Positions 23,539-47,668 of a stretch of 64,000 nucleotides of DNA are shown here, piece by piece. This DNA is from Robertkochia flava (lineage in GTDB: Bacteria; Bacteroidota; Bacteroidia; Flavobacteriales; Flavobacteriaceae): positions 62,001 to 126,000 of the forward strand of contig NZ_JAINZT010000006.1 of assembly GCF_020166515.1 (NCBI RefSeq), given 5' to 3'. Within the stretch, counting starts at the first letter, position 1; each line of letters opens with the position of its first letter. The notes below the pieces were generated by a model. It did no database searches and was not told where the DNA came from. It saw only the letters and a program-made list of their open reading frames with translations. A program made the translations under genes and the position numbers.

Positions 23539-23684
23539 TATATTAGCAGTGTTGTTAGTTTGATGCTGATTACACCGCCCTAAATGTTATCAGTATAGTA
23601 TACCCCAATAGATCCAACTTCATAACCTGCAAGAATGGATTTAAGAGAAAGAGTTCTGACCAGCGTCAGAACTCTTTTTTGTTT
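23539..23684 (+). ncRNA. Candidate structured small RNA, copy C
   Basis: A TATATTAG box (23539-23546) is followed by a block shared with copies A and B (AGTGTTGTTAGTTTG, then TGCTGAT). Hairpin 1 is CTGATTAC (23566-23573) with GTTATCAG (23586-23593) and the loop ACCGCCCTAAAT. Hairpin 2 is ATCCA (23612-23616) with TGGAT (23636-23640), with TAACCT in the loop. The transcript ends at the terminator at 23648-23681. Copies A and B keep hairpin 1 with compensating changes and the same GCCCYAAAT loop. It reads no convincing protein. I do not recognise the class; it should be compared with Rfam (for example flavo-1). Confidence 0.6.
23648..23681 (+). terminator. Intrinsic terminator after the response regulator / candidate RNA C
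   Basis: A perfect 13 bp stem (AAAGAGTTCTGAC / GTCAGAACTCTTT) with a 4-base CAGC loop runs into TTTTTT. Confidence 0.9.
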
Positions 23685-23689
23685 TAGAG

Positions 23690-24230
23690 ACAGAGTAGGG
23701 CAGGTAGGGAAATGACGAAAGGGGAATTGTAAATTATAGATTATGAATTATAGATTATAAATTAAAGATAGGGTGGTATATACTGCGACCTATACATATT
23801 TATGCTATCAATATTTTTAAGATCCATTCACAATTCACAACTCCCGACTCCCGACTAACCACTCACAATTCAAAATTCACAACTCCCGACCTACCGTGCT
23901 TCGTACAGGCAGGATCTCCTCCCGTAAGGGATGGCAAGCTCCCGACTCCCGACTCCCGATTCCCGACTAACCACTCACAATTCACAATTCACCTCTCCCG
24001 ACCTACCGTGCTTCGTACAGGCAGGATCTCCTCCTGTAAGGGATGGCAAGCTCCCGTCTCCCGTCTCCCGACTCCCGATTCCCGATTCCCGACTAACCAC
24101 TCACAATTCATTGAACATCCCCCTCCCTACACACTTTCATCTGCTCACCACAATTTGGATCACATTCACAACATACATTTTCTATTAAGGTAATTCTGAC
24201 ATACTTTAGAGGTGTTGATACATTAGAGTT
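23690..24230. repeat. Repeat mosaic between response regulator and kinase
   Basis: The region starts purine-rich (GAGACAGAGTAGGGCAGG, 23695-23715), passes through AT-rich ATTATAGATTATAAATT units, and turns pyrimidine-rich. ACTCCCG 7-mers and ACTAACC / ACTCACAATTC units fill 23840-24115. The element CTACCGTGCTTCGTACAGGCAGG + ATCTCCTCC(C/T)GTAAGGG + ATGGCAAGCTCCCG occurs twice, at about 23890-23943 and 24002-24055. No gene is seen. Confidence 0.8.
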
Positions 24231-24270
24231 GATTATTAGTATAACAACTTGTTTTTCATAATGATGCCCT

Positions 24271-24308
24271 AAACGAGTTTTAAGTCGCCCCTTAAAACTC
24301 GTTTTTTT
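24271..24308 (+). terminator. Strong terminator-like hairpin in the regulator-kinase gap
   Basis: AAACGAGTTTTAAG pairs perfectly (14 bp) with CTTAAAACTCGTTT around a 6-base loop, then T continues to 24308. Just before the stem is GATGCCCTAAA, similar to the conserved loop of the small RNA family. A short RNA may end here; its promoter is not clear. Confidence 0.8.
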
Positions 24309-24407
24309 ATGTAATGATTTGAGGTTTAGCGCATTGCGATCTGAGGTTTATTAGGGGTAGTTTTGTAGTTGACATTTCTTACTTTTTTTCCTTAATTCCC
24401 GTACTTT

Positions 24408-24415
24408 TATATTTG
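24408..24415 (+). promoter_or_regulatory. -7 promoter box of the kinase transcript
   Basis: TATATTTG matches TAnnTTTG exactly. Transcription from here would begin near 24420 and include a leader of about 200 bases with the hairpin at 24560-24590. No TTTG lies at the right distance upstream (GTTGACA is 36 bases away), so the -33 half is weak. Confidence 0.4.
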
Positions 24416-24559
24416 ATGAACAGGGCATAAATTCACAACAGGATGCTACTGTTATACAACAAAAGTTTATTTGTTGGGATGAAATCAGCTATGTTTACCC
24501 TGCTGTTGAGATGTTCATTGTTTTTACAGGCAGACACAGCCTGCCTGCAATAGTCAAAG

Positions 24560-24590
24560 AAAGCCTAAATACGAGTTTTAGGCTTTTTTT
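24560..24590 (+). terminator. Terminator-like hairpin (possible attenuator) in the kinase leader
   Basis: AAAGCCTAAA pairs perfectly (10 bp) with TTTAGGCTTT and runs into seven T. It lies inside the longest open frame of the kinase (which begins at 24511) but before the TTG that I take as start. A CAGGCAG / CTGCCTG hairpin precedes it at about 24528-24548. The bases ACGAGTTTTA are shared with the terminator at 24271. Confidence 0.7.
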
Positions 24591-24621
24591 AGGTAACAAC
24601 GGCTCATTTATTGATAAGACA

Positions 24622-26589
24622 TTGAGAACCCATTTCCTCCATACAAAACCACTACTGGTACTCCTCGGGATAACGTTGTTAACCCTGGGGAGACTTCATG
24701 CCGTTACCCAGGATCCGCCTGCCGATGCTTATACCACCTTTTTGAACCTGGAAGATACAGAAGAGCGCTTTGATTACTTTTTCAACAAGCGCCAAAAGTA
24801 CCAGGGAATCTCGGCCTACAGGTGGAAGGAGAAGTTGGAAGATATTATAAGTAAGATCAATATTGCAGACGATCCGCTATCCCGGCCCTATTATGAGACC
24901 ATGCTTTGCCAGGTGTATTTTGACCTGGGGGCTTTTGAAAAAGGGGCCTATCTGGCCGATAAACTTTTAGCAGATGAAGCCAACCTGGATCTCGAGGTGA
25001 AACGAAGGCTGTTAAAAGTAGCTGACGGGATTTATGCAGAGATGCAACTGTACGAGAAACAGCTGGAGGTGCGAAAGGCCCAGGAACGACTCGGAGAAAA
25101 AACAGAATTGTATACGGTATATGAGAAAATGGGACTGCACCGTCACGCCCTTACCGATTATGAGATCAGGTATCCGCTGGATTCTGTTAAGACCGAAGGA
25201 AATTTTGCCCTGGCTGCCTACCACAGGAAAAGGGCCGATTTTAAACGGCAGGATGGACGGTTAAACCTTACCGCTATTAAAGAATACGAGACGGCCTTAG
25301 CCCTGATCGATGAGTATATAAACATCCAGGGGATCAGTTCTGAAGAAGAATTCAGGGAGGCCATCTTTCTTCGCGGTCAGATCCTTGGTGGGATAGGGAA
25401 GTGTATGCTAAATCTCGGAAAATACCGGGGAGCCATTACCTACCTGGAACAGGGGGTGTCTTCCGGCCGGAATTACGAGCGCGGTAAATTTCCTTATTAC
25501 ACTGCGGAATACTGGACCGATCTGGCAGAGTGTTATCTGAAGGAGAGAGACCTGGAAATTGCCGGCAAGTACCTGGATAGTGTGGGTGGAATAGGAACGG
25601 TATCACCTTCAAATAAGTTCCGATATTACCATCTCAGGGCCGATCATCTTCTCGGGTTGGGAGAAGTGGAAAAGGCTGCGGTGTATCTCAGACGCTACTC
25701 GAATGGGAGGGATTCCCTGGAAAAGTCGGTAATGGATAAACAACTACTCGGACAGTATGCGGCCTTTGATATGGACCAGCAAACCAAAAGAAAACTGGAG
25801 CGGCAGCGTATTGACCTGGAGCATAATAAGAATGAGATCCTTGAACGGGAAAAGATCATTTACCTTAGTATCGTAGCGCTTTTATTCAGTTTGCTTTGCG
25901 TGGTGGCACTTATTGTAGCTTATATGAAAAGCGTTCGCAACAAGAAGCTCATTGAAGAACAGAAACAGTTTATTGAGGACTCCCTGGTGGAGAAGGATTC
26001 CCTGTTAAAAGAGATCCACCACAGGGTGAAGAACAACCTTCAGATGGTTTCCAGTCTGCTGAACCTGCAATCCAAGAACACCAGGAGCAGGGCAGCTATC
26101 AATGCCCTGGAGGAAGGGCAGCGTAGGGTAAAGGCCATGGCCCTGATCCATCAGAAATTATATCAGAACGACGATCTTTCTGTTATTGAAATGCAGGAAT
26201 ACATAGAATCGCTCGTAGCCAGTATTCATTCGGTATTTAAAAAGGAAGGTTATCAAACCAACATTCATATTGCTGCTGAAAAGACCAAGTTGGATGTAGA
26301 TCGCGCTATTCCCATTGGCCTGATCCTGAATGAACTCGTGTCTAATTCCTTTAAGTACGCTTTTGCCGAAAATAAAGAAGGGAACATTTATATCACCCTT
26401 CAAAATAAAGGCGAAGAATACGCCTTTGAATACAAGGATGATGGCAAGGGACTGCCTGACGATTTTGAGCAGACTTCCATAGGGTCTATGGGGCTTCGTT
26501 TAATCAGGCGTCTGGCCAATCAGTTGCGTTCAAATCTTCAGATAGACACCGAGGCTTCCGGAGCCCGATTCTGGTTTAATTTTGGTTAA
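24622..26589 (+). CDS. Sensor histidine kinase, TPR-type, HisKA_2 family
   Basis: From the TTG at 24622 the protein has 655 residues and begins with RTHFLHTKPLLVLLGITLLTLG, a normal signal peptide/anchor; the frame upstream to 24511 crosses a terminator hairpin. A periplasmic TPR-like helical repeat region follows (about 40-395), then a coiled coil, one membrane helix (IIYLSIVALLFSLLCVVALI) and the HisKA_2 dimerisation domain with the phospho-His in KEIHHRVKNNLQMVSSLLNLQ. The HATPase_c domain has IPIGLILNELVSNSFKYAF, DDGKGLP and GSMGLRLI. It probably phosphorylates the LytTR regulator at 22713. The signal sensed is unknown; its position inside the men locus may or may not matter. Confidence 0.85.
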   Translation: MRTHFLHTKPLLVLLGITLLTLGRLHAVTQDPPADAYTTFLNLEDTEERFDYFFNKRQKYQGISAYRWKEKLEDIISKINIADDPLSRPYYETMLCQVYFDLGAFEKGAYLADKLLADEANLDLEVKRRLLKVADGIYAEMQLYEKQLEVRKAQERLGEKTELYTVYEKMGLHRHALTDYEIRYPLDSVKTEGNFALAAYHRKRADFKRQDGRLNLTAIKEYETALALIDEYINIQGISSEEEFREAIFLRGQILGGIGKCMLNLGKYRGAITYLEQGVSSGRNYERGKFPYYTAEYWTDLAECYLKERDLEIAGKYLDSVGGIGTVSPSNKFRYYHLRADHLLGLGEVEKAAVYLRRYSNGRDSLEKSVMDKQLLGQYAAFDMDQQTKRKLERQRIDLEHNKNEILEREKIIYLSIVALLFSLLCVVALIVAYMKSVRNKKLIEEQKQFIEDSLVEKDSLLKEIHHRVKNNLQMVSSLLNLQSKNTRSRAAINALEEGQRRVKAMALIHQKLYQNDDLSVIEMQEYIESLVASIHSVFKKEGYQTNIHIAAEKTKLDVDRAIPIGLILNELVSNSFKYAFAENKEGNIYITLQNKGEEYAFEYKDDGKGLPDDFEQTSIGSMGLRLIRRLANQLRSNLQIDTEASGARFWFNFG

Positions 26590-26629
26590 ATTTTACTACT
26601 TTTAACCTGAACCAATTTAGAGATATCGT

Positions 26630-27307
26630 ATGAAGATCACCTTTTACGGTCATGCCTCTCTTGGCATCGAAGTAAACGGGGTACACCTGGTGGTGGATCC
26701 CTTTATTTCAGGAAATGAGAAGGCCGCATCTGTAGCTATTGACGAGATTAAAGCAGATTATATACTTGTAACTCATGCCCACCAGGATCATATCCTGGAT
26801 GTGGAGCGTATTGCTAAAAATACCGGTGCTGTAGTGGTTTCTAATTTTGAGATCGCCTCCCATTTCGGAAATAAAGGTCTGGAAATGCACCCGATGAATC
26901 ACGGGGGAAACTGGGATTTTGAATTTGGTAAACTAAAATATGTGAATGCCATTCACACCTCTTCCTTTCCTGATGGTTCCTATGGCGGACAGCCCGGTGG
27001 ATTCGTGATCGAAGGGGAGCACAAGAATATCTATATCGCCGGGGATACTGCCCTTACCTGGGATATGAAGCTTATTCCGATACAGACCAAACTTGACCTG
27101 GCCATTCTGCCAATTGGAGATAATTTCACCATGGGGGTTGATGATGCCATTATAGCCGCTAACTTTCTCGAATGCGATAAGGTTCTAGGGTATCATTACG
27201 ATACTTTCGGATATATTGAGATCAACCATGAGGAAGCCAAACGTAAATTTTATGAGAGTAACAAAGATCTGATGTTACTGGAGATCGGTGAAAGTTTAGA
27301 ATTATAA
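26630..27307 (+). CDS. UPF0173 metallo-beta-lactamase-fold hydrolase
   Basis: The 225-residue MBL-fold protein has the metal motif H49-A-H51-Q-D53-H54, NHGG and HTSSFPDGSYGG in the middle, IAGDTALTWDMK for the bridging Asp, and GYHYDTF near the end, all as in the UPF0173 (YtkL) family. These are cytoplasmic metal-dependent hydrolases without a settled substrate. The stop codon is directly followed by the ATG of menC, with no base between, so the two are co-translated. It is part of the menaquinone locus by position; its role there is unknown. Confidence 0.88.
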   Translation: MKITFYGHASLGIEVNGVHLVVDPFISGNEKAASVAIDEIKADYILVTHAHQDHILDVERIAKNTGAVVVSNFEIASHFGNKGLEMHPMNHGGNWDFEFGKLKYVNAIHTSSFPDGSYGGQPGGFVIEGEHKNIYIAGDTALTWDMKLIPIQTKLDLAILPIGDNFTMGVDDAIIAANFLECDKVLGYHYDTFGYIEINHEEAKRKFYESNKDLMLLEIGESLEL

Positions 27308-28372
27308 ATGGAAGGCAGATACCTGAGGTATGTCCTCAATTTCAAACGTCCCAGCGGAACTTCCAGGGGAGTGCTCACTACTAAGGAAACCTGGTTTCTG
27401 ATACTCGAAGAAGGCGGTAAAACCGGAATAGGCGAGTGTGGGATCCTACGTACCCTCAGTGTGGATGATCGGCCGGATTATGAAGAAAAACTATACTGGC
27501 TTTGCAACAATCTTCACCGGGACCCTGAGGAGATCTACCGGGAATTAACCGAATTTCCCTCCATACAGTTTGGTTGGGAACAAGCCTTATTATCATTAAG
27601 GTCGAATGATCCTTTTTTGTTGTTTCCATCCGATTTCACAAAGGGTACATCTTCGATTGCCATTAACGGATTGATCTGGATGGGCAACCCTGATTTTATG
27701 CAGGAGCAGATCGAAGAAAAACTCAACCAGGGTTTTGATTGTATTAAAATGAAGATCGGGGCCATAGATTTTGATTCGGAGATCGCCTTGCTAAGGACCC
27801 TTAGGAAACGATATTCCAGGGATGTCATACAGCTTCGGGTAGACGCCAACGGGGCTTTTTCTAACCAGGAGGCCCTCCAAAAACTGGAGGTCTTAAGTTC
27901 CCTGGACCTGCACTCGATAGAGCAACCCATCAAGGCCGGACAACCGGAAGCGATGGCTGACTTGTGCCGGTATACACCTTTACCCATAGCCCTGGATGAA
28001 GAGCTTATAGGCGTATTTTCTGCCAGCGAAAGGGGAGAGCTGCTCAACCATATCCGCCCACAGTATATTATTCTTAAGCCCAGTCTTGTTGGAGGCTTTA
28101 AAGCCTGTGATGAGTGGATCGACCTGGCCGGAGAAGTTAATGCAGGCTGGTGGATCACCAGTGCCCTGGAAAGTAACATAGGCCTCAATGCCATTGCGCA
28201 GTATACATACACCCTTCACAATCCGATGCCTCAGGGCTTGGGGACAGGAAGTCTGTTTACCAACAATATCCAGGCTCCTTTGGAAGTCGGGAACGGGATG
28301 CTTAAATATAATGTAAGCAGCAAGTGGGAATTGCCCGAGGCATTTCATATCAAAGGAGGCAAGGCCCATTAA
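27308..28372 (+). CDS. menC: o-Succinylbenzoate synthase
   Basis: The 354-residue enolase-superfamily enzyme dehydrates SHCHC to o-succinylbenzoate. KMKIG (base Lys), VDANGAF (metal Asp), SIEQP (metal Glu), DEEL (metal Asp) and ILKPSLVGGF (second Lys) are in the expected order. Its ATG follows the UPF0173 stop without a gap. The N-terminal capping part (FKRPSGTSRGVLTTKETWFLILEE) is typical for Bacteroidota MenC. The product goes to MenE, 1.1 kb downstream. Confidence 0.93.
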   Translation: MEGRYLRYVLNFKRPSGTSRGVLTTKETWFLILEEGGKTGIGECGILRTLSVDDRPDYEEKLYWLCNNLHRDPEEIYRELTEFPSIQFGWEQALLSLRSNDPFLLFPSDFTKGTSSIAINGLIWMGNPDFMQEQIEEKLNQGFDCIKMKIGAIDFDSEIALLRTLRKRYSRDVIQLRVDANGAFSNQEALQKLEVLSSLDLHSIEQPIKAGQPEAMADLCRYTPLPIALDEELIGVFSASERGELLNHIRPQYIILKPSLVGGFKACDEWIDLAGEVNAGWWITSALESNIGLNAIAQYTYTLHNPMPQGLGTGSLFTNNIQAPLEVGNGMLKYNVSSKWELPEAFHIKGGKAH

Positions 28373-28412
28373 CCGGGAAATGATAAACATGAGATCCCGG
28401 GGATTCCTATTA

Positions 28413-28516
28413 ATTTTACAACTAACAACTAACAACTAACAACTAACAACTAACAACTAACAACTAACGACTAACTACTAACGATTAACTACTAACGACT
28501 AAAGATTAACAACTAA
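28413..28516. repeat. 7 bp tandem array between menC and the CPBP gene
   Basis: About 14 units of ACAACTA and variants (ACGACTA, ACTACTA, ACGATTA) run from 28418 to 28516 and end about 23 bases before the next ATG. With a period of 7 the TAA in each unit passes through all three frames. The bases from 28373 include a GATCCCGGGGA stretch but no convincing terminator. Confidence 0.85.
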
Positions 28517-28538
28517 CGACCCAAAATCCTTATTAACG

Positions 28539-29462
28539 ATGTATATAGAACAAGCATATAAAGGGAAACCTGAACTTTGGAAATACCTTATTATTCCCGG
28601 ACTTTTCCTGGGGTATATGGCCCTGAATTTTATCGTTCTGCTCTTTTTGCCGGAAGGGGAAATAGAACAGATGATGGCCAAAATGATCGAGCAGGAGGGA
28701 GAGATCAATTTTTTAATACAGATGCTGCTGCCTTTTGCCTTTGCCCTGGGGATGCTATTGGTTTGGGTGAAATATATTCACAAGCAATCGATCACGGCCC
28801 TGACCACTTCCCGGAAAAAGATCGACTGGGGAAGGATATTTTTCGCTTTTTTCCTTTGGGGAGCGGTGACCACCATACTGGTGTTCGTCGATTATGGTTT
28901 AAAGCCGGAGCATTATAAATGGAATTTTGATCTGATGATGTTTTTACAGCTGGCCCTGGTTGGTATTTTGCTGATCCCTCTGCAAACCAGCTTTGAAGAA
29001 TATTTCTTCAGAGGATACCTGATGCAGGGGATAGGAATTTATTCGGGAAACAGATGGTTACCACTGGTGGTTACATCCCTGTTCTTTGGATTACTGCACC
29101 TGGGGAATCCCGAAGTGGGGAAACTGGGCTATGGCATTATGTTGTATTACATCGGTACTGGTTTCTTCCTGGGTGTGTTAACCCTGATGGATGAAGGTTT
29201 AGAGCTGGCCATCGGGTTCCACGCTGCCAATAATTTGTTTACCGCCTTGCTTGTTACCGCGAACTGGACCGCCTTTCAAACTCCTTCGGTATTAAGGGAT
29301 ATTGCAGAACCCTCTATAGGATTCGATGTTGTGGTTCCGGTTTTCATCGTTTTCCCTGCTTTATTATGGATTTTTGGGAAGCGATATGGATGGACGAACT
29401 GGTCTGAAAGATTGACGGGTAAAGTCGCTAAGGAAGAAGCGGTTGTTGCTGTAGATCAATAA
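28539..29462 (+). CDS. CPBP-family intramembrane metalloprotease
   Basis: The 307-residue protein has about eight membrane helices and the three CPBP motifs: SFEEYFFRGYL (EExxxR), LFFGLLHLGN (FxxxH) and GFHAANNLF (HxxxN). It is a Rce1/Abi-type membrane protease, site in the inner membrane. It lies between menC and menE; CPBP genes in this position are, as far as I recall, frequent in Flavobacteriaceae, but no function in quinone synthesis is known. The substrate is unknown. Confidence 0.88.
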   Translation: MYIEQAYKGKPELWKYLIIPGLFLGYMALNFIVLLFLPEGEIEQMMAKMIEQEGEINFLIQMLLPFAFALGMLLVWVKYIHKQSITALTTSRKKIDWGRIFFAFFLWGAVTTILVFVDYGLKPEHYKWNFDLMMFLQLALVGILLIPLQTSFEEYFFRGYLMQGIGIYSGNRWLPLVVTSLFFGLLHLGNPEVGKLGYGIMLYYIGTGFFLGVLTLMDEGLELAIGFHAANNLFTALLVTANWTAFQTPSVLRDIAEPSIGFDVVVPVFIVFPALLWIFGKRYGWTNWSERLTGKVAKEEAVVAVDQ

Positions 29463-29473
29463 TACTTTTCCCC

Positions 29474-29504
29474 TTTGTTACCATAGGAATAAAAAGTAAT
29501 TTTA
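29474..29504 (+). promoter_or_regulatory. Possible promoter of menE
   Basis: TTTG (29474-29477), a 19-base spacer and TAATTTTA (29497-29504; the last base differs from TAnnTTTG). The box ends 4 bases before the menE ATG, so a transcript from here would be nearly leaderless. Confidence 0.4.
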
Positions 29505-29508
29505 CATT

Positions 29509-30609
29509 ATGAATCCCACGTACGATAAAATACACCTGAAGTTTAAGCTCAATGGAAATCCTTTCAGCAGGGAAGATCTGCAGGAGGTGGCTTATAGCTT
29601 CGTCAAAGAAGGGAAACCCTTCGAAAAGTCTGTTGGTAACTTTTTAATGGATTGGCTGGATCATCATGATTTCATTGAGGTCACTACCTCAGGATCTACT
29701 TCCCGCCCAAAACGGGTAAAGGTCGATAAGCAATATATGGTTAATTCAGCTCTGGCTTCCGGAGACTTTTTTGGACTTAATCCCGGAGATACTGCGCTGC
29801 ATGCGTTGCCTGCCGACTTTATAGCGGGAAAAATGATGCTGGTAAGGGCTATGATACTCGGCCTGGAGATCGATCTGGTAGAGCCGGGTTCAAAACCGCT
29901 GAAAAAAACAGAAGAATCCTACGACTTTTCGGCGCTCACACCCATGCAGCTCTATAATTCTCTGGATGATCTCGATCGTATTAAAAAGCTGATAGTAGGA
30001 GGAGCACCCGTAAGCAGGGAGCTTATCGAAAGTATTCAGGACAAGCGAACGATGGTATATGAAACCTACGGGATGACGGAAACCGTTACCCATATCGCAG
30101 CCCGTCAACTCAATAATTTTAAGAATGCGAAAGAAGTGGAGCAGTCCTATTTCAGGGTGCTTCCGAACATTTCCATTAAAACCGATCAGCGGGGATGCCT
30201 GGTGATCGATGCCCCTCACATTACCGATGAGACCGTGGTAACCAATGACCTGGTAAGTATTGTAGATAACAACCAGTTCGAATGGCTGGGCCGGTACGAT
30301 AATATGATCAACTCCGGAGGTGTAAAGCTTATCCCGGAACTTATCGAAGAGAAGTTTGCCCAATCCCTGAGCAACCGTTTTTTCGTTTGCGGGATGAAGG
30401 ATAAGGAGCTGGGAGAGAAGCTCGTTATGGTAATTGAAGATGACCCGGCTAAGGAAGATGATTACTGGGATACCCTGAAAAAGGTAAAAGGCCTCGGAAA
30501 ATATGAAATGCCAAAATCGCTCCTTTTTACCGATCGGTTCGAAGAAACAGAAAACGGTAAGGTGATCCGGCATGCTACCCTTGAAAAGGTGCAGGTAGGG
30601 AGTCGTTAG
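29509..30609 (+). CDS. menE: o-Succinylbenzoate-CoA ligase (short form)
   Basis: The 366-residue AMP-binding enzyme activates o-succinylbenzoate with ATP and CoA. TTSGSTSRPKRV is the P-loop, YETYGMTETVTH the A5 motif, GRYDNMINSGGVKLIPELIEE the A8 hinge, and ENGKVIRH holds the catalytic Lys. It is much shorter than the usual 450-480 residues because the N-terminal subdomain is reduced, as is normal in Bacteroidota. The last codons, VGSR and the TAG stop, are spelled by GTAGGGAGTCGTTAG, the start of a 7 bp repeat array that goes on downstream. Confidence 0.9.
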   Translation: MNPTYDKIHLKFKLNGNPFSREDLQEVAYSFVKEGKPFEKSVGNFLMDWLDHHDFIEVTTSGSTSRPKRVKVDKQYMVNSALASGDFFGLNPGDTALHALPADFIAGKMMLVRAMILGLEIDLVEPGSKPLKKTEESYDFSALTPMQLYNSLDDLDRIKKLIVGGAPVSRELIESIQDKRTMVYETYGMTETVTHIAARQLNNFKNAKEVEQSYFRVLPNISIKTDQRGCLVIDAPHITDETVVTNDLVSIVDNNQFEWLGRYDNMINSGGVKLIPELIEEKFAQSLSNRFFVCGMKDKELGEKLVMVIEDDPAKEDDYWDTLKKVKGLGKYEMPKSLLFTDRFEETENGKVIRHATLEKVQVGSR

Positions 30610-31142
30610 TCGGGGGAGTAGTTAGTCGGGAGTCGTGAGTGGGGAGACGTTAGTGGTTAGTTGTGAATCGTGAACTTACCTGTTTGAATGCATTAGTCGG
30701 ATTTGATTTTAGGACGGAAACCGTATTATACATGTATTCAGTAACGAAAATCAGTTTATGGGACACCGAATATTGCACCTGTCTTTTCCAACCTAAGAAT
30801 TTTTATCTGTGCTTACACATATGGTCATAAGGAACCGGGATCAGGGCCGGTTAGAGGATTCACCTTCGAGCCTGGAACATGCCAAATCTGTATTTTAGAC
30901 ATTACCCTGCCTGCAAGTTTACAGGGCTGTCTTTCAAAAAGTGAAGAAAGCGGATATCGTGAATTTTTAAATTTCGGGGATTCTATTCACTCCATACCTC
31001 TTTAATGATCCATCATTTCAAGGCCTGACGTTTCTCTACTGCCAACTCACTACTAACGACCTACCGTGCTTCGCACAGGCAGGATTTCCTCCCGTATGGG
31101 ATGGCAAGCTCCCGACTCACTACTAACGACTCACCAAAAAGT
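30595..31142. repeat. Intergenic region with arrays at both gene ends
   Basis: Next to menE, 30595-30670 holds GTTAGTC / GGGAGTC / GTGAGTG 7-mers. Next to doxX, 31040-31135 holds the same family in the opposite orientation (ACTCCCG, ACTCACT, ACTAACG), with one CTACCGTGCTTCGCACAGGCAGG element (31060-31110). So each of these two convergent genes meets the array in the same relative direction. The middle, about 30680-31030, has no gene and no repeat that I recognise. Confidence 0.75.
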
Positions 31143-31565: not shown

Positions 31566-31677
31566 AATCAGTTTGTTTATAGTCTTAATTTACTAAAAAT
31601 CAATGACTTATAAAATAGGTGCGCCAGGGTTTCTGAATCTCTCAGATATGCAGTATTTTTCTGAAAAAATTAGTAAA

Positions 31678-33018: not shown

Positions 33019-33149
33019 AGGGGCTGAAAACAGAAGGGATGTAGCGCCTGCCTTTTTGCCGGTTTCAGCATAGTTTGTAATGGCATCCCGGAGTATTAGG
33101 AACTCAAAAGCAGCCTCATTTTTTAATGTTCCATTGAAATTGCTAAGTC

Positions 33150-35995: not shown

Positions 35996-36025
35996 GTGGT
36001 ATTGTTTTAAAAATTAAAAGAACGT

Positions 36026-38772: not shown

Positions 38773-38876
38773 AACTTTTTTGTTTTTAAAGTTACGAAAA
38801 ACCCTTCATCTTATCAATTAGTGTATGGGGGATGGTGAATCCCTTTAAGTAATAAGAAGTTGATTTTGAGGAAAAT

Positions 38877-39029: not shown

Positions 39030-39139
39030 GGTAATGCTAATTTATAGGTTAACAATTTGGGTTTGCGACTGCTAATATAGAAAAAAAAGTAGAGTTTGTA
39101 CTTTTTAACGTTTTAACTGCCTGATTTTGTAGACGAAAA

Positions 39140-39625: not shown

Positions 39626-40641
39626 TACTTCCTTATAAAATCAGACACCAGGTAGGCAAGGGCTTTCCCTGTTAGAGCCATTTCTTTGGGGTTATCCGGA
39701 TCGGGTGCTGCCTCACACAGGTGGAGGTAGGTCGCGTTCTTTGATCTCGATGCATTAAACACCATCTGTCTTACGGTTTCCAGGCTTAGTCCGCAAGGGC
39801 TATGCGCACTGCTGGGCATATAGGCAATGGCGTCCATATCGACTTCAAGACCGAATTTTCCGCCTTTGACAAAATTTATAGACTCATTGATCTCGAACTC
39901 CAGGCCCTTTTCCCTTCTTATAAACAGCTCCTCGAAGGTGTTGTAGGCAATGCGGTCCTCCTGGTCTATCTTTTTAAAGATTTTTTTGGAAGTATAATTT
40001 TCATGAATGCCGAACATGAAATATTTATCCAAAAAGCCTTCATAATAGGCCCAGCTAAACCCATTGCCACTATGCCTTGATTCTCTTTTTCTAAAGTCGG
40101 TATGGGCATCGATATTGAGTACATTGATGCCTAATCCAAGCGCAAGGGAACTTCCTTTAATGTTGCCGTATGCATTATTGTGCCCTCCACCAATGATAAT
40201 AGGTTTCTTACCTGAAGAAACGATCTTTCTTACCAAGTCTGTAACTTCCTTATCGATGCCTTCGGTGATACTTCTGCACTTTAAAATCCGTTCTTCGCCG
40301 GATAGCCCTTCAATGCTTTTAAGGGAGTCAGAAAAATCGAGATGTCCAAGTACAAGTACTTTGGACCCTTTGGTAAATGCGTTGTGCTGCATATTGAGAA
40401 TGGCCTTCAATGCGGCTTCCCACGCATATCTGGTTCCCGGCTGCCCGTGATTCCCCATAACCCCGATATCCTCAGGAATACCAAAAAGCACGAACCTGGC
40501 TCCGGAAGCCTGTAACTGTTCCTCCAGATCTCCCCCGGAGTTAAGCACCTCCGTTTTCTCTCCAAACTTGGTTTCTCCGGCCCGGATTTTGGTCAGGGAA
40601 TGAATTTTTTTTAAATCGTAAGTGATTAATTTTGAAGGCAT
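39625..40641 (-). CDS. hutG: Formimidoylglutamase / ureohydrolase-family enzyme
   Basis: This 338-residue arginase-fold enzyme has the binuclear Mn site in three motifs: GGGHNNAYG, NIDAHTDFR (D-A-H-x-D) and EVDMDAI (D-x-D). The N-terminal part (FVLFGIPEDIGVMGNHGQPGTRYAW) is that of the Bacteroidota formimidoylglutamase group. Reaction: N-formimidoyl-glutamate + water to glutamate + formamide, the last step of histidine breakdown. hutI is in the same window but 22 kb away; hutH and hutU are not seen. A different guanidino substrate cannot be excluded. Confidence 0.8.
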   Translation of the reverse strand: MPSKLITYDLKKIHSLTKIRAGETKFGEKTEVLNSGGDLEEQLQASGARFVLFGIPEDIGVMGNHGQPGTRYAWEAALKAILNMQHNAFTKGSKVLVLGHLDFSDSLKSIEGLSGEERILKCRSITEGIDKEVTDLVRKIVSSGKKPIIIGGGHNNAYGNIKGSSLALGLGINVLNIDAHTDFRKRESRHSGNGFSWAYYEGFLDKYFMFGIHENYTSKKIFKKIDQEDRIAYNTFEELFIRREKGLEFEINESINFVKGGKFGLEVDMDAIAYMPSSAHSPCGLSLETVRQMVFNASRSKNATYLHLCEAAPDPDNPKEMALTGKALAYLVSDFIRK

Positions 40642-40770
40642 TATATAAAAATAATTCTTAAATGAGTGCGAAAATAATCTAAAATAAATTTCTGTGCGTA
40701 TATATAGCGGTGGGTAATTTATAAAAAAGAAAGACTATATTAACGCCCCAATAAATTTAAAAACTAAATT

Positions 40771-41679
40771 ATGACTGACACAAAAAGTAATAACGGATTA
40801 AAAGTGATCGCCGGTTTACTGGCCGCTGCACTTATTGCTACTGTCTTTTATACAGTGAGTTTGTATAATGACAAGAAAGAAACCACCGCTAAACTGGTAT
40901 CGGAAAAAAATCTTGTAATTGAAGACCTGAACAATCTGAAATCAGATTACGACCGTGCCATTTCTGAAAGCGAATCTGCAAATGCACAGCTGGTGGATGC
41001 CAGAAATAAGATCTCTGCGTATATTGATTCTGTTAAGACCATGAAGGCAGATATCAGTGCCCTTTCCCGTTACAGACGCCAGGTTCGTCAGCTTACCAAA
41101 GAGCGTGAATACCTGCTTGCTCAGAACGATTCCTTAAGATCGTCTAATGCATTACTGGCTATGGAAGTAGACAGTACTAAGGTAGCCCTGGAAGAGCAAT
41201 CTATGTTTACGGATTCCCTGCTTGTTCAGAACACCCAACTGGCTAAGGTTGTTGAAACCGGATCTGCTTTAGGATTAAGTAAATTTACTGTTGAGGCCGT
41301 AAAAGAGCGTAACAGTGGAAAACTGGTAACCGTTAATAATAACAGACGTGCCGATAAGATCAGAATTTGCTATACCGTACTGGCTAACAGAATTGCCAAG
41401 CCAGGAGCAAAGCAATTCTACATCCAGGTTACTGATCCATCCGGTCAGATCCTTGGAGAGCGCGCTGTAGCCGCCATCCAGCCTGAAGAAGAAGGACAGG
41501 AAGGAAACAGCATTACCTACAGTAAGGCTTCAAGCTTCTACTATGAGAACACTGCTCTTGATGTTTGTGATTTCCTGAACAAACCAGGAGAAGCAGACTT
41601 TGCTGAAGGAAGTTATAATGTAGTAGTATTTGATGAGAAGCTGAGAGAACTAGGGTCAGCCCAGTTCGAACTAAAATAA
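40771..41679 (+). CDS. Conserved membrane-anchored coiled-coil protein
   Basis: The 302 residues have a short cytoplasmic start, one membrane helix (VIAGLLAAALIATVFYTVSLY, about 12-32), a long coiled coil (about 33-160; SEKNLVIEDLNNLKSDYDRAI, YRRQVRQLTKEREYLLAQNDSL) and a globular C-terminal domain (about 170-302) with IRICYTVLANRIAKPGAKQFYIQV and EGSYNVVVFDEKLRELGSAQFEL. The C-terminal part looks like an all-beta domain. I believe relatives exist across Flavobacteriaceae without assigned function. It is monocistronic with a strong terminator. Codon use looks like that of a well-expressed gene. Confidence 0.75.
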   Translation: MTDTKSNNGLKVIAGLLAAALIATVFYTVSLYNDKKETTAKLVSEKNLVIEDLNNLKSDYDRAISESESANAQLVDARNKISAYIDSVKTMKADISALSRYRRQVRQLTKEREYLLAQNDSLRSSNALLAMEVDSTKVALEEQSMFTDSLLVQNTQLAKVVETGSALGLSKFTVEAVKERNSGKLVTVNNNRRADKIRICYTVLANRIAKPGAKQFYIQVTDPSGQILGERAVAAIQPEEEGQEGNSITYSKASSFYYENTALDVCDFLNKPGEADFAEGSYNVVVFDEKLRELGSAQFELK

Positions 41680-41711
41680 TTGATCAGATACCCACTTTTC
41701 AGATCATAATG

Positions 41712-41744
41712 ACATCAGCCCGTTTTACGGGCTGATGTTTTTTT
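41712..41744 (+). terminator. Intrinsic terminator after the coiled-coil gene
   Basis: A perfect 12 bp stem, ACATCAGCCCGT / ACGGGCTGATGT, has a TT loop and is followed by seven T. The last T bases touch the stop codon of the convergent gntP gene. Confidence 0.9.
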
Positions 41745-43086
41745 ATACCCATAGGGAAATGAAACCGACAGATGCCAGCCCGGTGAGCGCCAGTAAGGTG
41801 GTCATCATCGTCCACGATCGGAAGGTTTGTTTCTCATCCAATCCGAGATACTGACTTACCAGCCAGAATCCGCTGTCGTTCAAATGCGAAAAGATCGAGG
41901 CGCCCGAGGCTACTGCTATAACCATGCAGGCCATTTCCAGGGAAGAGAATGCTGTGTCAATAACCGGTGCCACCAACCCTGCGGCAGTAATCATAGCAAC
42001 AGTTGCCGAGCCCTGTACGATACGCACCAGAGCGGCCATTATAAATGCAAAAAGCAGGATGGGTACGCCTAAGTCTGAGAGGGAATTGGCGAGAATTTCA
42101 CCCGCACCCGTGTCTATCAGTACCTGCTTGAACACTCCACCCGCACCGGTGATGAGAATGATGATCCCCGCCGGAGCGAGAGATTTATTGCTGATCTTCT
42201 GAAGGTCCTTTCGGCTTACTCCTTTTCGTATGCCCAGAAAGTACCACGCCAACAGGTTGGCTATGATCAAAGCCGAAAACGGATGACCTATTAATGCGAA
42301 CAAGGATGCCACGCCCGTATTTTCCATTCCGCTAACCTCACTATTCAGGAGGGTGTTGCAGAGGATAAGTACGATGGGAACGGCAATAAGCCATAATACC
42401 AGGCTGAAGCCTGAACTAAGGGTACTTTCGGAGGACTGATCTTGTACTGCCTCTGGTACAGGTGCATAAATGCGGTTGCCAATAAATTTACCGAAAAACA
42501 ATCCACTTACCAGGGTAGTAGGGATTCCGGCAAGGATACCGATCATGATCACACTCCCCAGGTCGGCTCCAATTATATCGGCTACGGCTATGGGTCCGGG
42601 AGTAGGAGGTATAAATGCATGGGTTACCGCCAGTCCTGATAAAAGCGGGATTGCATAGAACAAAAGAGAACGCCCGGTTCGTTTTTGCAACGCATAAAGC
42701 ATGGGCACCATCAGAATAAATCCGACCTCAAAAAATACCGGAATGGCAATAATAAATCCTGTTATGGACAAAGCCAGGGGGGCTTTGCGTATACCAAACC
42801 GTTCCAATAGGTGCGATGCAATGACCCTCGCTCCTCCGGAATGCTCCAGTATGGCTCCGAAAATAGCTCCAAGCCCGACAACCGTGGCCACATATCCCAG
42901 TGTTCCCCCCATCCCGCTTTGAACTGTTCCTATGATCCGGTCGGGTCCCATCCCGGCGATCAATCCAACTACTATGCTGCTGATCAGTAAGGATAGGAAG
43001 GCATGGATCCGCAATTTGAGGATAAGAAAAAGCAGCAGTGCGATTCCGGTAACAACGGCGGTAAGAATTAAGTGTTCGTTCATCAT
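41743..43086 (-). CDS. gntP: Gluconate:H+ symporter, GntP family
   Basis: The protein (447 residues from the ATG at 43086, 452 from that at 43101) is a polytopic permease with about 12 hydrophobic helices. LGYVATVVGLGAIFGAILEHSGGA, FIIAIPVFFEVGFILMVPML and HAFIPPTPGPIA are GntP hallmarks, as is NDSGFWLVSQYLG near the end. It imports gluconate (or a similar sugar acid). With the upstream start it would overlap the kinase/dehydrogenase stop by 10 bases; from 43086 the gap is 5 bases. Either way it forms an operon with the fusion enzyme that uses its substrate. Confidence 0.9.
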   Translation of the reverse strand: MMNEHLILTAVVTGIALLLFLILKLRIHAFLSLLISSIVVGLIAGMGPDRIIGTVQSGMGGTLGYVATVVGLGAIFGAILEHSGGARVIASHLLERFGIRKAPLALSITGFIIAIPVFFEVGFILMVPMLYALQKRTGRSLLFYAIPLLSGLAVTHAFIPPTPGPIAVADIIGADLGSVIMIGILAGIPTTLVSGLFFGKFIGNRIYAPVPEAVQDQSSESTLSSGFSLVLWLIAVPIVLILCNTLLNSEVSGMENTGVASLFALIGHPFSALIIANLLAWYFLGIRKGVSRKDLQKISNKSLAPAGIIILITGAGGVFKQVLIDTGAGEILANSLSDLGVPILLFAFIMAALVRIVQGSATVAMITAAGLVAPVIDTAFSSLEMACMVIAVASGASIFSHLNDSGFWLVSQYLGLDEKQTFRSWTMMTTLLALTGLASVGFISLWV

Positions 43087-43091
43087 AAGGT

Positions 43092-44987
43092 TTATTCCCA
43101 TTGGGTGTGATAAAAATCGGAGGAAGGATCCTCACGCTTCTGGTATTTATGAGCACCGAAATAATCCCGTTGTGCCTGGATCAGGTTTGCCGGACTGTTT
43201 GCCTCGGTGATCCCGTTCAGGTAGTTCAGGGCAGCGCTTAGTGCAGGGGTGGCAACATTACCTTTTATTGCGGCAATAATAACGGTTTGCAGGGCTGATC
43301 TGCAGGAGGCGGCGGTTTCAATAGTTTCTTCCTGCAGCATGATTTCCGGTTGATCTTTGAGGGTGGCAGACAGGGTTTCCATAAGAACAGACCTTATTAT
43401 ACAACCCTGCGTCCAGATCCGGGCTACCTCATGCAGGGCATAGGAATACGATTCTTCTGATATTCCGGCCTGCAGCAGTTCAAATCCCTGGACATGATTC
43501 ATGAAACGGGCGAGGGTATAGGCCTGTTTCAGAATTTCGGGTTCCAGGGAGATGGGTTCCTGCGGAGGTGTGAAGCTTTGGTTAAGTCGGACGCGTTTCT
43601 CCTTGAAAAAGGATACATAACGCGCAAACAGCGATGCGGTTATCATAGAAACAGGAGTTCCGGTTTTAGCCCCTGCCACAGAAGCCCAGCTGCCTGTGCC
43701 TTTGTTGCCAGCTTTGTCGAGAATGGCATCCAGAAGAAGTTCTCCGTTCTCGTAATAATTCAGAATATCGCAGGTGATGGAAAGCAGGTAGCTTTCCAAA
43801 GGACCCCCGTTGAATGCTGAGAATACCTCATGCATCTTTTCGCTGGAGTATTCCCCGCGCTTCATCAGGTGATAGAGTTCGGCCAGCAGCTGCATTTCAG
43901 CATATTCTATACCATTATGAACCATCTTTACAAAATGCCCTGAACCATCTTTGCCCAAATAGGAGCAGCAAGGGGCACCATTTTTATCTTTCGCGGCCAG
44001 TAGCCACAGGTAAGGCGAGGCGATCAGGTATCCCTCGGGATGCCCCCCCGGCATAAGGGAGGGACCGGTAAGGGCGCCTTTCTCACCTCCCGAAATACCG
44101 CAACCAAGAAACCAGATGCCGGCTTCCTGCAATTCCCGGCTCAGTCGTTGGGTGTCTTTATAATGTGAATTTCCCCCATCGATGATCACATCCCCGGGAT
44201 CAAGAAGCGCTTTGAGTTGACCGACAACCTGGTTGACAGCTACTCCTGAGGGAACCATAAGCAGGATCTTTCTCGGCTTCGACAGGGAAGAGGTGAACTC
44301 TTGAAGGTCGTTAAACCCTTTCGCCTCCTTTAATTCCGGGTAGGTCTTAATTCGTTTCTCGGCCAGGGCTTCTTCTCCTTCAGCCTCGCGGTTGTACAGT
44401 GCCAGCCTGATGTGTTTTGTCGCAAGATTTCTGCTGATACTGCACCCCATGACCCCCATGCCGATCACTCCGAATTCTGCTTTAACGGTAAGGTCTTCAA
44501 GAATGCTGTTGCAGATATCTTCAGGATCGCTTTCAATGGAATATACCAGGGCTTCCACGGGTTTTTCCAGGGTAAGGAATTGAGAGGTTAGCAGATCCGG
44601 AGGCATGAAATGCCCGGAACGGGAGTGTATCCGCTCCCTGATGGTGGATATGTCCCCGTCGAGATGAATGAATTTTACATGGTGCTCTATGCCTTTATCA
44701 AGGATACGTCGGTAATTATCTTTAAGGGCAGAACAAGCCAGGATGCAGCTTTCCTCTTTGTCTATATGGGTTTCGATCAATTCGTGCAAACGCTCGAGCC
44801 AGGGTTTTCTGTCTTCATCGTTCAGGGGTACCCCATGCTTCATTTTACGTAGGTTGGCCTCGGGATGATAGGCATCGGCATCTATAAAGGTAATACCGGT
44901 GGCACGCGAAAGCAGGTGCCCAATAGTGGATTTACCCGATCCTGAGACCCCCATTATGATCAGGGCAAGCGGTCTTGGTGTTTTCAT
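43092..44987 (-). CDS. Gluconokinase / 6-phosphogluconate dehydrogenase fusion
   Basis: This 631-residue protein joins two enzymes. Residues 1-165 are a GntK-type gluconokinase: P-loop GVSGSGKST (13-21), DADAYHPEANLRKM, LNDEDRKPWL, CSALKDNYR. Residues 170-631 are a complete 6-phosphogluconate dehydrogenase: GMGVMG (176-181), IIDGGNSHYKDT, GISGGEKGA, catalytic Lys in HFVKMVHNGIEY, DKAGNKGTGSW, and the C-terminal YFGAHKYQ. It would turn gluconate through 6-phosphogluconate into ribulose 5-phosphate in one chain, with NADP+ reduced. The frame is continuous, with no sign of a sequencing frameshift. It precedes gntP in one operon. Confidence 0.93.
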   Translation of the reverse strand: MKTPRPLALIIMGVSGSGKSTIGHLLSRATGITFIDADAYHPEANLRKMKHGVPLNDEDRKPWLERLHELIETHIDKEESCILACSALKDNYRRILDKGIEHHVKFIHLDGDISTIRERIHSRSGHFMPPDLLTSQFLTLEKPVEALVYSIESDPEDICNSILEDLTVKAEFGVIGMGVMGCSISRNLATKHIRLALYNREAEGEEALAEKRIKTYPELKEAKGFNDLQEFTSSLSKPRKILLMVPSGVAVNQVVGQLKALLDPGDVIIDGGNSHYKDTQRLSRELQEAGIWFLGCGISGGEKGALTGPSLMPGGHPEGYLIASPYLWLLAAKDKNGAPCCSYLGKDGSGHFVKMVHNGIEYAEMQLLAELYHLMKRGEYSSEKMHEVFSAFNGGPLESYLLSITCDILNYYENGELLLDAILDKAGNKGTGSWASVAGAKTGTPVSMITASLFARYVSFFKEKRVRLNQSFTPPQEPISLEPEILKQAYTLARFMNHVQGFELLQAGISEESYSYALHEVARIWTQGCIIRSVLMETLSATLKDQPEIMLQEETIETAASCRSALQTVIIAAIKGNVATPALSAALNYLNGITEANSPANLIQAQRDYFGAHKYQKREDPSSDFYHTQWE

Positions 44988-46025
44988 GTAAAGAAGGTTG
45001 GTTGATTAAATATAGGAATTTTTAACCGGGTGGTTGCAGAGGAGTATGGGGTAAGGGATTATAGATGATTGATGATAAATTATAGATGGATACCAGGGAT
45101 GTTTCAACTTCCCGACTCTAACACCCTGCCCGCCGTACAGCCAAGAAAGGAGGTGTACGGGGCATATATTCTGAAATAGATCGTCTTTGCGAGTCCCGTC
45201 TTGCGGGACGTGGCAATCTCCCTGATAAAGGTACCGGGTACGAGGAAAGGGATTATAGATGATTGATGGTAAATTATAGATGGATACCAGGGATGTTTCA
45301 ACTTCTCGACTCTAACACCCTGCCTGCCGTACAGCCAAAAATGCAGGGGTACGGAGCACCTACTCCGAAACAGTTCGTCTTTGCGAGTCCCGTCTTGCGG
45401 GACGTGGCAATCTCCCTAATAAAGGTACGGTGGTACAAGCCTGCCTGTCGCCAGGTTGGGATCAAAAAAAAGTTCCGGGGGGCACCGGAACTTTATTTGT
45501 TATCCACGTAGTAGGTTAGTATTTGGATTTGGTTTTTGTTGTGAATTCCTGACATCAATTTGGGGCTCTGACATCAGCAACAAACTAACAACACTACTAA
45601 TATAGAACAGGAAGAAAGGATTTAAAATTTTATGTTGTCAGAATAATCCTTATTGTTGTAAAGTGTTGTTTTAGAGTTATTTGGTTGTTTTTTGGGTTGC
45701 AGGTTACAGGTTATGGGCTACATCTGGAATCCTTTCCGGGAGAAAACCCTGATGTCCCGTCAGAAAGGCAGGAATTGTGAATGGTGAATTGTAAATGATG
45801 AATTGTGGAAAAGGTAGCTCAGGTTTGTCGTCTTTGCGAGTCCCGTCTTGCGGGACGTGGCAATCTCCCAAATAAAGGTACGGGGTACGGGGTACAAGGA
45901 AATGGATTATAGATTATTGATGATAAATTATAGATGCAGTAGACGCATTCGGTTTTAAAATTTACCGACTCCCAACTCACCACTCACCACTAACGACTCA
46001 CGACTCACCACTAACCACTCAAAAC
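44988..46025. repeat. Repeat mosaic between gntK-gnd and pirin
   Basis: The 1038 bases hold no protein gene. TTTGCGAGTCCCGTC hairpin elements ending GGCAATCTCC lie at about 45183, 45380 and 45832. AT-rich GATTATAGATGATTGATG units precede them. A block at 45035-45135 (GGGATTATAGATGAT to CCGTACAGCC) returns at 45243-45335 and, more diverged, at 47040-47125. 45458-45683 is near-identical to 47133-47362 and holds RNA candidate A. 45960-46025 is an ACTCACC / ACTAACG / ACTCACG 7 bp array that runs into the pirin stop codon. Confidence 0.85.
45464..45604 (-). ncRNA. Candidate structured small RNA, copy A
   Basis: Read on the minus strand: TATATTAG box (45597-45604), the AGTGTTGTTAGTTTG + TTGCTGAT block, hairpin 1 CTGATGTCA / TGATGTCAG (45569-45577 with 45549-45557; two G-U pairs) with loop GAGCCCCAAAT, hairpin 2 ATCCA / TGGAT (45524-45528 with 45502-45506; TAACCT in the loop), then the terminator AAAGTTCCGG / CCGGAACTTT (45469-45494) with eight T. 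The same plan as copy C at 23539 and copy B at 47139. About 130-140 bases long. It points away from pirin and towards gntK-gnd. Confidence 0.6.
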
Positions 46026-46877
46026 TCACTCCTCCCATCGGCCCATTTTTCCTTCCCGGAAATCCTGGTAGGCCTGGGCGATCTCTTCCTCTGTATTCAT
46101 CACAAAGGGACCGTGGGCAACCATAGGTTCGTTTAAAGGGTGGGCGTGACCGAGAATAATTATACTATCCCTTTGAGCTTCCAGGCTTAGTTTTGAGCCC
46201 TCATTTTCAAATTCTGCAAGGTGAAATTCCGGAATTTCCTTATCGTTTACATCAATAAGCCCTTTTACCACATAAAAGAAAATATTTCGTTCTCCCGGAA
46301 TGTCCATATTTAGGGTGCTCCCTTTCTGCATCCGTATTGTACTGAGAAAGATATCGGTGAGGGTATTCACACTTCCTTTCCTTCCGTCCCAGTCTCCGGC
46401 TATCAGATCAGCTTCGATACCCGGGGCCGGTTGTATTTTCGCCAATTCGTCTGATTGCAATCCCTTGTAGGAAGGGGTAGTCATTTTGTGTTTGGCTGGC
46501 AGGTTTACCCATAGCTGAAGAATTTCCAGATCACCGCCTTCACGGATAAACTCATCGGATGATAACTCAGCGTGAATGAGTCCACTTCCGGCGGTCATCC
46601 ATTGGATGCCTCCTCCGTTGATGACGCTCTTAGCCCCCGAACTGTCCTTATGGGCAATATCGCCCGAAATGATAAAGGTTACTGTCTCTATACCCCGGTG
46701 TGGATGCGGACCGAAAGGCAATCCGTTGTTATTTGGTGGGAAAAACTGGGGCCCATGGTGATTCAAAAAAATAAAGGGGTCTATCTGATCCAGTTGCCGG
46801 CTCGGGATAGGGGAATAGGTACTTAATCCACCCATTGGCCGGGACTCGGCCTTTATGATCCTGCTAATACTTCTCAT
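46026..46877 (-). CDS. Pirin-family bicupin protein
   Basis: The 283-residue protein has the pirin N-terminal cupin with the metal-binding motif PHPHRGIETVTF, followed by DSSGAKSVINGGGIQWMTAGSGLIHAE, in which the last His completes the site; the Glu usually four residues later is A-E here. The C-terminal cupin (about 165-283) ends EPMVAHGPFVMNTEEEI. Pirins are Fe-binding and some act as quercetin dioxygenases; a regulatory role has been proposed. It is flanked by the two near-identical repeat copies (A and B), so the gene lies between long direct repeats 1.7 kb apart. The stop codon lies in a 7 bp array. Confidence 0.88.
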   Translation of the reverse strand: MRSISRIIKAESRPMGGLSTYSPIPSRQLDQIDPFIFLNHHGPQFFPPNNNGLPFGPHPHRGIETVTFIISGDIAHKDSSGAKSVINGGGIQWMTAGSGLIHAELSSDEFIREGGDLEILQLWVNLPAKHKMTTPSYKGLQSDELAKIQPAPGIEADLIAGDWDGRKGSVNTLTDIFLSTIRMQKGSTLNMDIPGERNIFFYVVKGLIDVNDKEIPEFHLAEFENEGSKLSLEAQRDSIIILGHAHPLNEPMVAHGPFVMNTEEEIAQAYQDFREGKMGRWEE

Positions 46878-47668
46878 GGTTTTTATTTCAAATTTAAGAA
46901 AGGAAAATTAAAGGAGAGGTTGAGGGGGAATGGTTAATGATGAATTGTAAATTATGAATTGTGGAAAAGGTAGCTCAGGTCTGTCGTCTTTGCGAGTCCC
47001 GTCTTGCGGGGCGTGGCAATCTCCCTGATAAAGGTACGAGGTAAGGGATTATGGATTATAGATGATAAATTATAGATGGATACCAGGGATGCTTTAAGTT
47101 CTCGACTCTACAAGCCCGCCTGCCGCAAGTTAGGGATCAAAAAAAAAGTTCCGGGGGGCACCGGAACTTTTTTTATGGTTATCCACGTAGTAGGTTAGTA
47201 TTTGGATTTGGTTTTTGTTGTGAATTCCTGACATCAATTTGGGGCTCTGACATCAGCAACAAACTAACAACACTACTAATATAGAACAGGAGGGAAGGAT
47301 TTAAAATTTTATGTTGTCAGAATAATCTTTATTGTTGTAAAGTGTTGTTTTAGAGTCATTTGATGGTCGATGGGGCGAGCCTTCCTGTCGTGCCGCCAGG
47401 TAGGCAGGGGTACGAAGCACCTACTCCGAAACAGTTCGTCTTTGCGAGTCCCGTCTTGCGGGACGTGGCAATCTCCCTAATAAAGGTACGGGGTACGGGG
47501 TACAAGGAAATGGATTATAGATTATTGATGATAAATTATAGATGATAAATTATAAATGCAGTAGACGCATTCGGTTTTAAAATTTACCGACTCCCAACTA
47601 AACACTCACGACTCCCGACTCACCACTCACCACTCACCACTAACGACTCCCGACTCCCGACTCACCAC
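46878..47668. repeat. Repeat mosaic between pirin and miaA, with direct repeat copy B
   Basis: The region starts purine-rich (AAGGAGAGGTTGAGGGGGAA). GAATTGTGGAAAAGGTAGCTCAGG at 46954-46978 copies 45801-45824. TTTGCGAG hairpin elements lie at about 46986 and 47440. 47133-47362 is about 96% identical to 45458-45683. 47478-47600 repeats 45880-45975 including GCAGTAGACGCATTCGGTT. ACTCACC / ACTCCCG 7-mers fill 47590-47690 and extend into the last codons of miaA. No protein gene is seen. Confidence 0.85.
47139..47283 (-). ncRNA. Candidate structured small RNA, copy B
   Basis: Nearly the same sequence as copy A, as part of a 230 bp direct repeat: TATATTAG box at 47276-47283, both hairpins unchanged, terminator AAAGTTCCGG / CCGGAACTTT at 47145-47170 with seven or more T. 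Differences from A are few and fall mostly outside the stems. It lies upstream of pirin on the same strand, but the terminator should separate the two. Confidence 0.58.

Follow-up and report, generated by a model that had tools for sequence, protein, structure and literature searches.

Small RNA genes under a shared promoter architecture as the probable output of a LytTR two-component system in Robertkochia flava

What is the structured element that recurs in a 64,000-nucleotide stretch of the Robertkochia flava genome, and why does one of its copies sit between the gene for a LytTR response regulator and that for a histidine kinase? This stretch, here called the window, is C10:62001-126000 of the 3.45-Mb draft genome G000, and coordinates are window positions unless prefixed by C10. 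An earlier note on this DNA had described three copies of the element as a small RNA family; the promoter repeats, the neighbouring two-component genes and the sister elements treated below had escaped it. The family, referred to here as class I, is confirmed as real and is larger than first noted. Its multicopy RNAs probably are the output of the LytTR two-component system and may act by pairing in trans, as far as can be read from sequence.

Copies C (23539-23681, plus strand), A (45464-45604, minus strand) and B (47140-47283, minus strand; a recent duplicate of A) were found where they had been claimed, each with TATATTAG, AGTGTTGTTAGTTTG, hairpin 1, a weaker second hairpin and an intrinsic terminator, and all three share the hairpin 1 loop GCCCYAAA. 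In copy C, the -7 box occupies 23539-23546, hairpin 1 23566-23593 and the terminator approximately 23650-23681, all on the plus strand, while the transcript probably starts near 23550. All three copies belong to one family with an aligned structure, as members of a covariance model. The proposed number of three did not hold, as the genome contains five class-I copies. A fourth exact match of AGTGTTGTTAGTTTG marks copy D at C10:131044, and copy E at C10:129522 was found with a longer pattern, both outside the window. This longer pattern yielded 11 members in three of five genomes of the same genus, from which the covariance model R1 was built and run over 397 genomes of the bacterial family. 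R1 matched 18 of these, with five members in G000, seven in R. sediminum (G002) and one each in R. solimangrovi (G001), Galbibacter marinus (G049) and G274, which is of the same genus as G049; a match in G234 (E 6.4e-5) represents a related element. R. marina (G003) and Robertkochia sp. 3YJGBD-33 (G004) are absent from the full genome list of the equal-sized draw. After addition of these two genomes and two further Galbibacter loci (16 sources), 22 class-I members were obtained at E 1e-5, i. e. five in G000, seven in R. sediminum, four in R. marina, one each in R. solimangrovi and Robertkochia sp., and four in Galbibacter, the Galbibacter locus L144 (E 0.021) being left out of this count. Nine genomes thus carry class I, five of Robertkochia and four of Galbibacter. 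Homologues beyond this genome, for which the earlier note had called beforehand, are hence present in other species and in a second genus. Twelve weaker R1 matches (L042-L053, E about 1e-3 to 1e-2) were discarded, L042-L048 by eye because they lack the repeat pair described below and L049-L053 on score alone. The pattern matches L005, L007-L014, L016-L021, L023 and L024 were judged by eye to be chance (L006 lay outside that inspection).

Is the conserved part of these elements really the RNA structure? In a MAFFT alignment of the 11 initial members, 89.9% of the cells pair and 9 of 21 base pairs exhibit two-sided changes. In the 22-member alignment, which was made against the model and is hence biased towards it, 92.9% of the cells in hairpin 1 and the terminator are paired, with two-sided changes in 15 of 21 pairs. 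Slid controls of the same 22 members reached only 34.9-48.8% paired cells, and their covariation score did not exceed 0.14, compared with 0.433 for the real helices. RNAalifold recovers both helices from this alignment, with omission of some hairpin 1 pairs, and single-sequence folds (9 of the 11 members) are 2.4 to 6.5 standard deviations better than dinucleotide shuffles. The compensatory change that had been noticed in the seventh pair of hairpin 1 was borne out: it is A-U in 7, U-A in 3 and unpaired in 1 of the 11 members, and A-U in 12, U-A in 3, G-U in 1, unpaired in 2 and gapped in 4 of the 22. The three U-A members, namely A, B and a copy from R. marina, may reflect a single event. Covariation nevertheless extends beyond this pair, as had been asked of the family at the outset, into further positions of hairpin 1 (C-G to U-A, A-U to G-C and G-C to A-U among the 22 members) and into the terminator. 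The terminator stems, which had been considered unrelated in sequence, in fact align and covary, with two-sided changes in 8 of 10 pairs. Of the two hairpins proposed, hairpin 1 covaries and hairpin 2 is weakly supported (mean z of the region -1.07 over 22 members). Hairpin 1 aligns poorly in the most diverged rows (L141, L071 and L142) and in L065:11089. Single folds also hinted that the 5' GUUAG might pair over a long range with a CUAAC close to hairpin 2, but this was rejected, the mean z over the 22 members being 0.00.

A small protein as the conserved product was rejected, since no reading frame is conserved over the 22 members: the longest has 24 codons, and 5 of the 22 have no complete ATG-started frame. 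The element could also be a non-transcribed intergenic repeat or a mobile element, given that A and B are recent duplicates and that the region contains other intergenic repeats. Yet the covariation, the fixed promoter spacing and the terminators make this exceedingly improbable. A structured non-coding RNA family, as the earlier note had proposed, is instead supported by the homologues, the covariation of two helices, a common promoter architecture and terminators in the absence of a conserved reading frame. The suggested link to flavo-1 (RF01705) was not borne out. At the gathering score, Rfam 15 returned no match to flavo-1 or any other family in the window and in ten other loci, and up to E 5 only chance matches were seen around copies C and A.

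How might these RNAs be expressed? Each copy in the window is preceded by two half-sites 21 bp apart, namely ACCACA and GCAACA before copy C (23484-23510, plus strand) and two ACAACA sites before both copy A (45633-45659, minus strand) and copy B (47312-47338, minus strand). Across class I, the ACMACA half-sites, which lie at -55 and -34 relative to the -7 box, are exact in 20 of the 22 members and carry one mismatch in the remaining two. The box TATATTAG, originally taken as part of the RNA, occupies the fixed position of the Bacteroidota -7 promoter box; hence it probably precedes the transcript and is most likely a -7 promoter box and not RNA. The spacing was determined over 228 distinct sites, which stem from loci selected by the regulator, by the pattern or by model R1 and do not represent a random choice. 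In 183 of them, the second half-site is followed by TAnnTT at an offset of exactly 28 nt (next-best offset: 19). A perfect intrinsic terminator follows within 238 nt in 113 of these 183 sites versus 1-9 in ten shuffles. Favoured bases outside the pattern comprise TTC before each half-site, a G as the last base of the -7 box and, following the box, a TGTnnTTA block. This block, just past the box, is favoured across RNA classes (183 sites) and may constitute the initial transcribed sequence, serve the RNAs as a common 5' seed or be an element of the DNA. Three successive half-sites with a 21-bp period were seen before the regulator-adjacent RNA in L138, L139 and L142.

The position of copy C points to the likely activator. 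It lies between a gene for a LytTR response regulator (22713-23456, plus strand), which combines a receiver with a LytTR DNA-binding domain (Pfam Response_reg, E 1.7e-21; LytTR, E 2.2e-21) and has orthologues in 49 of 237 sampled genera of the bacterial family, and a gene for a sensor histidine kinase with a HisKA_2 domain (Pfam; 24622-26589, plus strand). The open frame of the latter extends from ATG 24511, and TTG 24622 appears to be the likelier start. In all 12 genomes of one set, a repeat pair follows the regulator gene within 420 bp, as it does within 450 bp in 69 of the 80 loci of a second set, and many genomes belong to both sets. The backwards-pattern control for the 80 loci overlaps real sites in 10 of them and was not used as evidence, nor was its counterpart for the 28-nt spacing, which overlaps real sites too. 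The kinase follows the regulator in 68 of 86 loci and, within 2.5 kb, in 64 of the 80-locus set, several loci stopping short of where it would be reached. Twelve genomes with a regulator orthologue contain the pattern CMACA-N16-CAACAWWWNWTT 72 times (backwards control: 6), compared with three times (control: 1) in 8 genomes without one. In the 397 family genomes, with E 1e-80 as orthologue cut-off, the pattern is found 429 times in the 82 that harbor an orthologue (control: 33), and at least three sites per genome are present in 69 of these 82 versus 4 of the 315 others.

Based on these data, the following scenario may be envisioned. The sensor kinase (24622-26589) would phosphorylate the LytTR response regulator (22713-23456), which could then occupy a pair of TTCACMACA-type half-sites at a distance of 21 bp (two helical turns) and recruit RNA polymerase to the -7 box 28 nt beyond. 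Transcription up to the intrinsic terminators would yield RNAs about 130 nt long. These would present the C-rich loop GCCCYAAA and, in approximately half of the members, an additional CCCC stretch close to the loop of the terminator. Most likely, such RNAs would act in trans and pair with mRNAs at G-rich stretches, for which the GCCCYAAA loop is the best candidate site. We strongly infer activation of the RNA promoters by the adjacent regulator, while its binding, the transcription of the elements and a trans action by base pairing are likewise predicted from the DNA. Consistent with a role of the loop, GCCCYAA is retained in 19 of 22 members; a CCCC stretch near the terminator was detected by a crude match in 11 of 22, copy C being without it.

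The C-rich stretches could also serve another purpose. Rather than pairing with mRNA, RNAs driven by the regulator might soak up an RNA-binding protein, much like CsrB/RsmZ, the sponges of CsrA/RsmA. Several copies per genome and C-rich stretches that recur within and across classes are what titration by dosage needs. Typical sponges, however, carry more such motifs than class I, in which each molecule bears a single loop motif of strong conservation and about half of the members have an additional C stretch near the terminator loop. A candidate protein did not turn up, although no search was directed at one. Sponging is therefore considered rather unlikely.

A number of observations weigh against regulator-driven RNAs that pair in trans. 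The 315 orthologue-free genomes still hold 202 CMACA-N16-CAACAWWWNWTT matches compared with 128 for the control, and regulator-bearing genomes share ancestry, so that co-occurrence counts are not independent and the nominal p values were given no weight. G274 lacks a kinase in the 10 kb examined after the regulator. All 11 loci without a repeat within 450 bp of the regulator gene (L150, L154, L160, L169, L174, L185, L187, L200, L208, L211 and L212; 210-403 bp available in two of them) are from Arenibacter and make up all 11 loci from this genus. In none of them was a kinase found in the examined flank, and the regulator locus seems to be rearranged in Arenibacter. Protein genes follow some repeat sites in other genera (L091, L105, L098, L100, L115 and L127), and hence the regulon is not RNA only. 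The member L065:11089 lacks the C-rich loop, and no excess of targets was detected in the window, in which TTTRGGGC, the reverse complement of the loop, occurs 10 times versus 7.2 expected, four of these ten matches being the RNA loci themselves. Finally, at E 0.001 the regulator protein finds between 11 and 44 matches in each of the 20 genomes searched, receiver-only relatives included, and a different LytTR regulator might thus bind the repeats. This appears improbable, as the sites are linked to the adjacent regulator gene in 69 of 80 loci and track its presence across genomes. Computation shows the family, its two helices, the promoter architecture, the linkage to and co-occurrence with the regulator, and the lack of conserved coding.

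Would the elements rather act in cis, as leaders or attenuators of the next gene? A co-directional gene lies downstream of copies C, A and B, and an additional element, class V (24435-24590, plus strand), terminates just ahead of the kinase frame. It comprises half-sites at 24435-24440 and 24456-24461, the -7 box TATGTTTA at 24490-24497 and a terminator at about 24559-24590, past which the TTG start of the kinase lies. Relatives of class V bear a tiny frame, e. g. ATG-TTA-ATC/ATT-x-stop, ahead of the terminator, and it could therefore be an attenuating leader; class V is a candidate for either an RNA-like element or a kinase leader. For class I, in contrast, the next co-directional genes start about 477 nt (A) and 263 nt (B) past the element and are unrelated (6PGD-like and pirin), copy D faces a convergent gene, copy E is followed by D, and strong terminators close the elements. 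A general cis function is thus very improbable. A further RNA-like element, class VII (24147-24308, plus strand), is equipped with half-sites at 24147-24152 and 24168-24173, the -7 box TACTTTAG at 24202-24209 and a terminator at 24273-24308. It is a weak R1 match with counterparts in the Galbibacter and Robertkochia loci L138, L140, L141, L143 and L144. Both class V and class VII, which are situated between copy C and the kinase, have counterparts in other Robertkochia and Galbibacter genomes. The window genome contains seven pattern sites, i. e. the five class-I RNAs, class V and C10:150248; class VII was found by reading and is not among the seven.

In other genera, different elements occur under the same switch. 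These were sorted by eye into a ACAGTGTAATTAAGTGA type that is often arranged in tandem (G005, G405, G022 and G015), a TTTTTTCATTTTCATATAGTGTTCTCG type often directly after the regulator gene and a AAGATCCCCAAATCTT hairpin type, and many of the inspected elements share CCCC or CCCAAAT stretches. Possibly, though with some doubt, the system in Robertkochia directly yields hardly anything but non-coding RNA, and RNA classes are swapped between genera under an invariant promoter while the C-rich signature is kept. Tandem arrays of other RNA-like elements with the same switch, about 300 bp apart, were also observed in other Flavobacteriaceae (L116-L123, L131 and L133), which repeat CCCCAAATC and ACTTAACC/ACCTACTT stretches. 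Three of the proteins encoded behind the above-mentioned repeat sites have LSDLHYLPPLKQG in common and by their look may be exported or surface proteins.

With regard to the wider neighborhood, copy C is found among genes whose products contain UbiA, enoyl-CoA hydratase, MR_MLE and AMP-binding domains (Pfam) and which are read as menaquinone genes. In every one of 86 inspected loci (81 distinct places, five double), the regulator is preceded by a menA-like gene. A CvfB-like S1-domain protein is encoded a few genes upstream of the regulator (19303-20226). CvfB is tied to the agr/RNAIII system in staphylococci, and its proximity here is perhaps a coincidence. The window also harbors intergenic repeats, namely CGCAAGACGGGACTCGCAAAGACGA (five exact copies) and GATTGCCACG (seven) on the minus strand and CTCCCGACTCCCGA (four copies) on the plus strand.

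Taken together, the findings suggest a signalling system that acts to a large extent through regulatory RNA, with regulator, boxes, promoter and RNAs all readable from sequence. To our knowledge, these bacteria lack Hfq-type chaperones and mostly Shine-Dalgarno sites. If this is true, the system would offer a ready test case for small-RNA action under such circumstances, as well as for the turnover of RNA genes under a constant promoter. No description of it was found in the titles and abstract openings of the open-licence literature (subscription papers being outside this scope). Two-component systems with sibling RNAs are already known, and a LytTR-driven one with several RNA classes in Bacteroidota appears to be a new form of them.

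Among the regulators that invite comparison, RgaR is a LytTR protein and LisR is of another type. A likeness in spacing is offered by RgaS-RgaR of Clostridioides difficile, which activates the small RNA SpoZ via direct repeats with critical bases at -51 and -72, i. e. 21 bp apart (PMC10602386). As proposed here, a response regulator and direct repeats with this distance drive a small RNA, but there it is one small RNA plus protein genes in another phylum, and the RNA is unrelated as far as known. Clostridium perfringens VirR likewise uses an imperfect direct-repeat pair upstream of the promoter, and its regulon includes the three regulatory RNAs VR-RNA, VirU and VirT (PMC2838878). In this case, the repeats are described as 7-8 nt apart, depending on how they are defined, and lie upstream of a -35 element, the RNAs are unrelated, and toxin genes belong to the regulon. 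In Staphylococcus aureus, the LytTR regulator AgrA drives the effector RNA RNAIII from direct repeats (PMC4227749). RNAIII, however, is a single, large transcript that codes for a peptide as well, and it is part of a quorum-sensing system. The Listeria monocytogenes LhrC1-5 RNAs are multicopy, depend on the two-component system LisRK and expose C-rich loops; they pair with Shine-Dalgarno sites, whereas pairing of class I is predicted. Streptococcal csRNAs (CiaR) and vibrio Qrr RNAs (LuxO) likewise comprise several siblings that a single response regulator controls, some of them arranged in tandem (PMC4211561), although their sequences and regulators are unrelated to those described here. Within Bacteroidota, Bacteroides thetaiotaomicron produces the multicopy sibling RNAs FopS/GibS, with the gibS promoter motif PM2 assigned to an unknown activator (PMC11697453). 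These were compared with class I by description and differ in that they repress SusC-like transporter mRNAs. Because the promoter and sibling-RNA architecture matches the AgrA, VirR, RgaR, LhrC and csRNA/Qrr precedents, the locus is read as a regulator-driven sibling-RNA system, and by analogy the best explanation is that it works like the RNAs driven by VirR/RgaR, LisR or CiaR.

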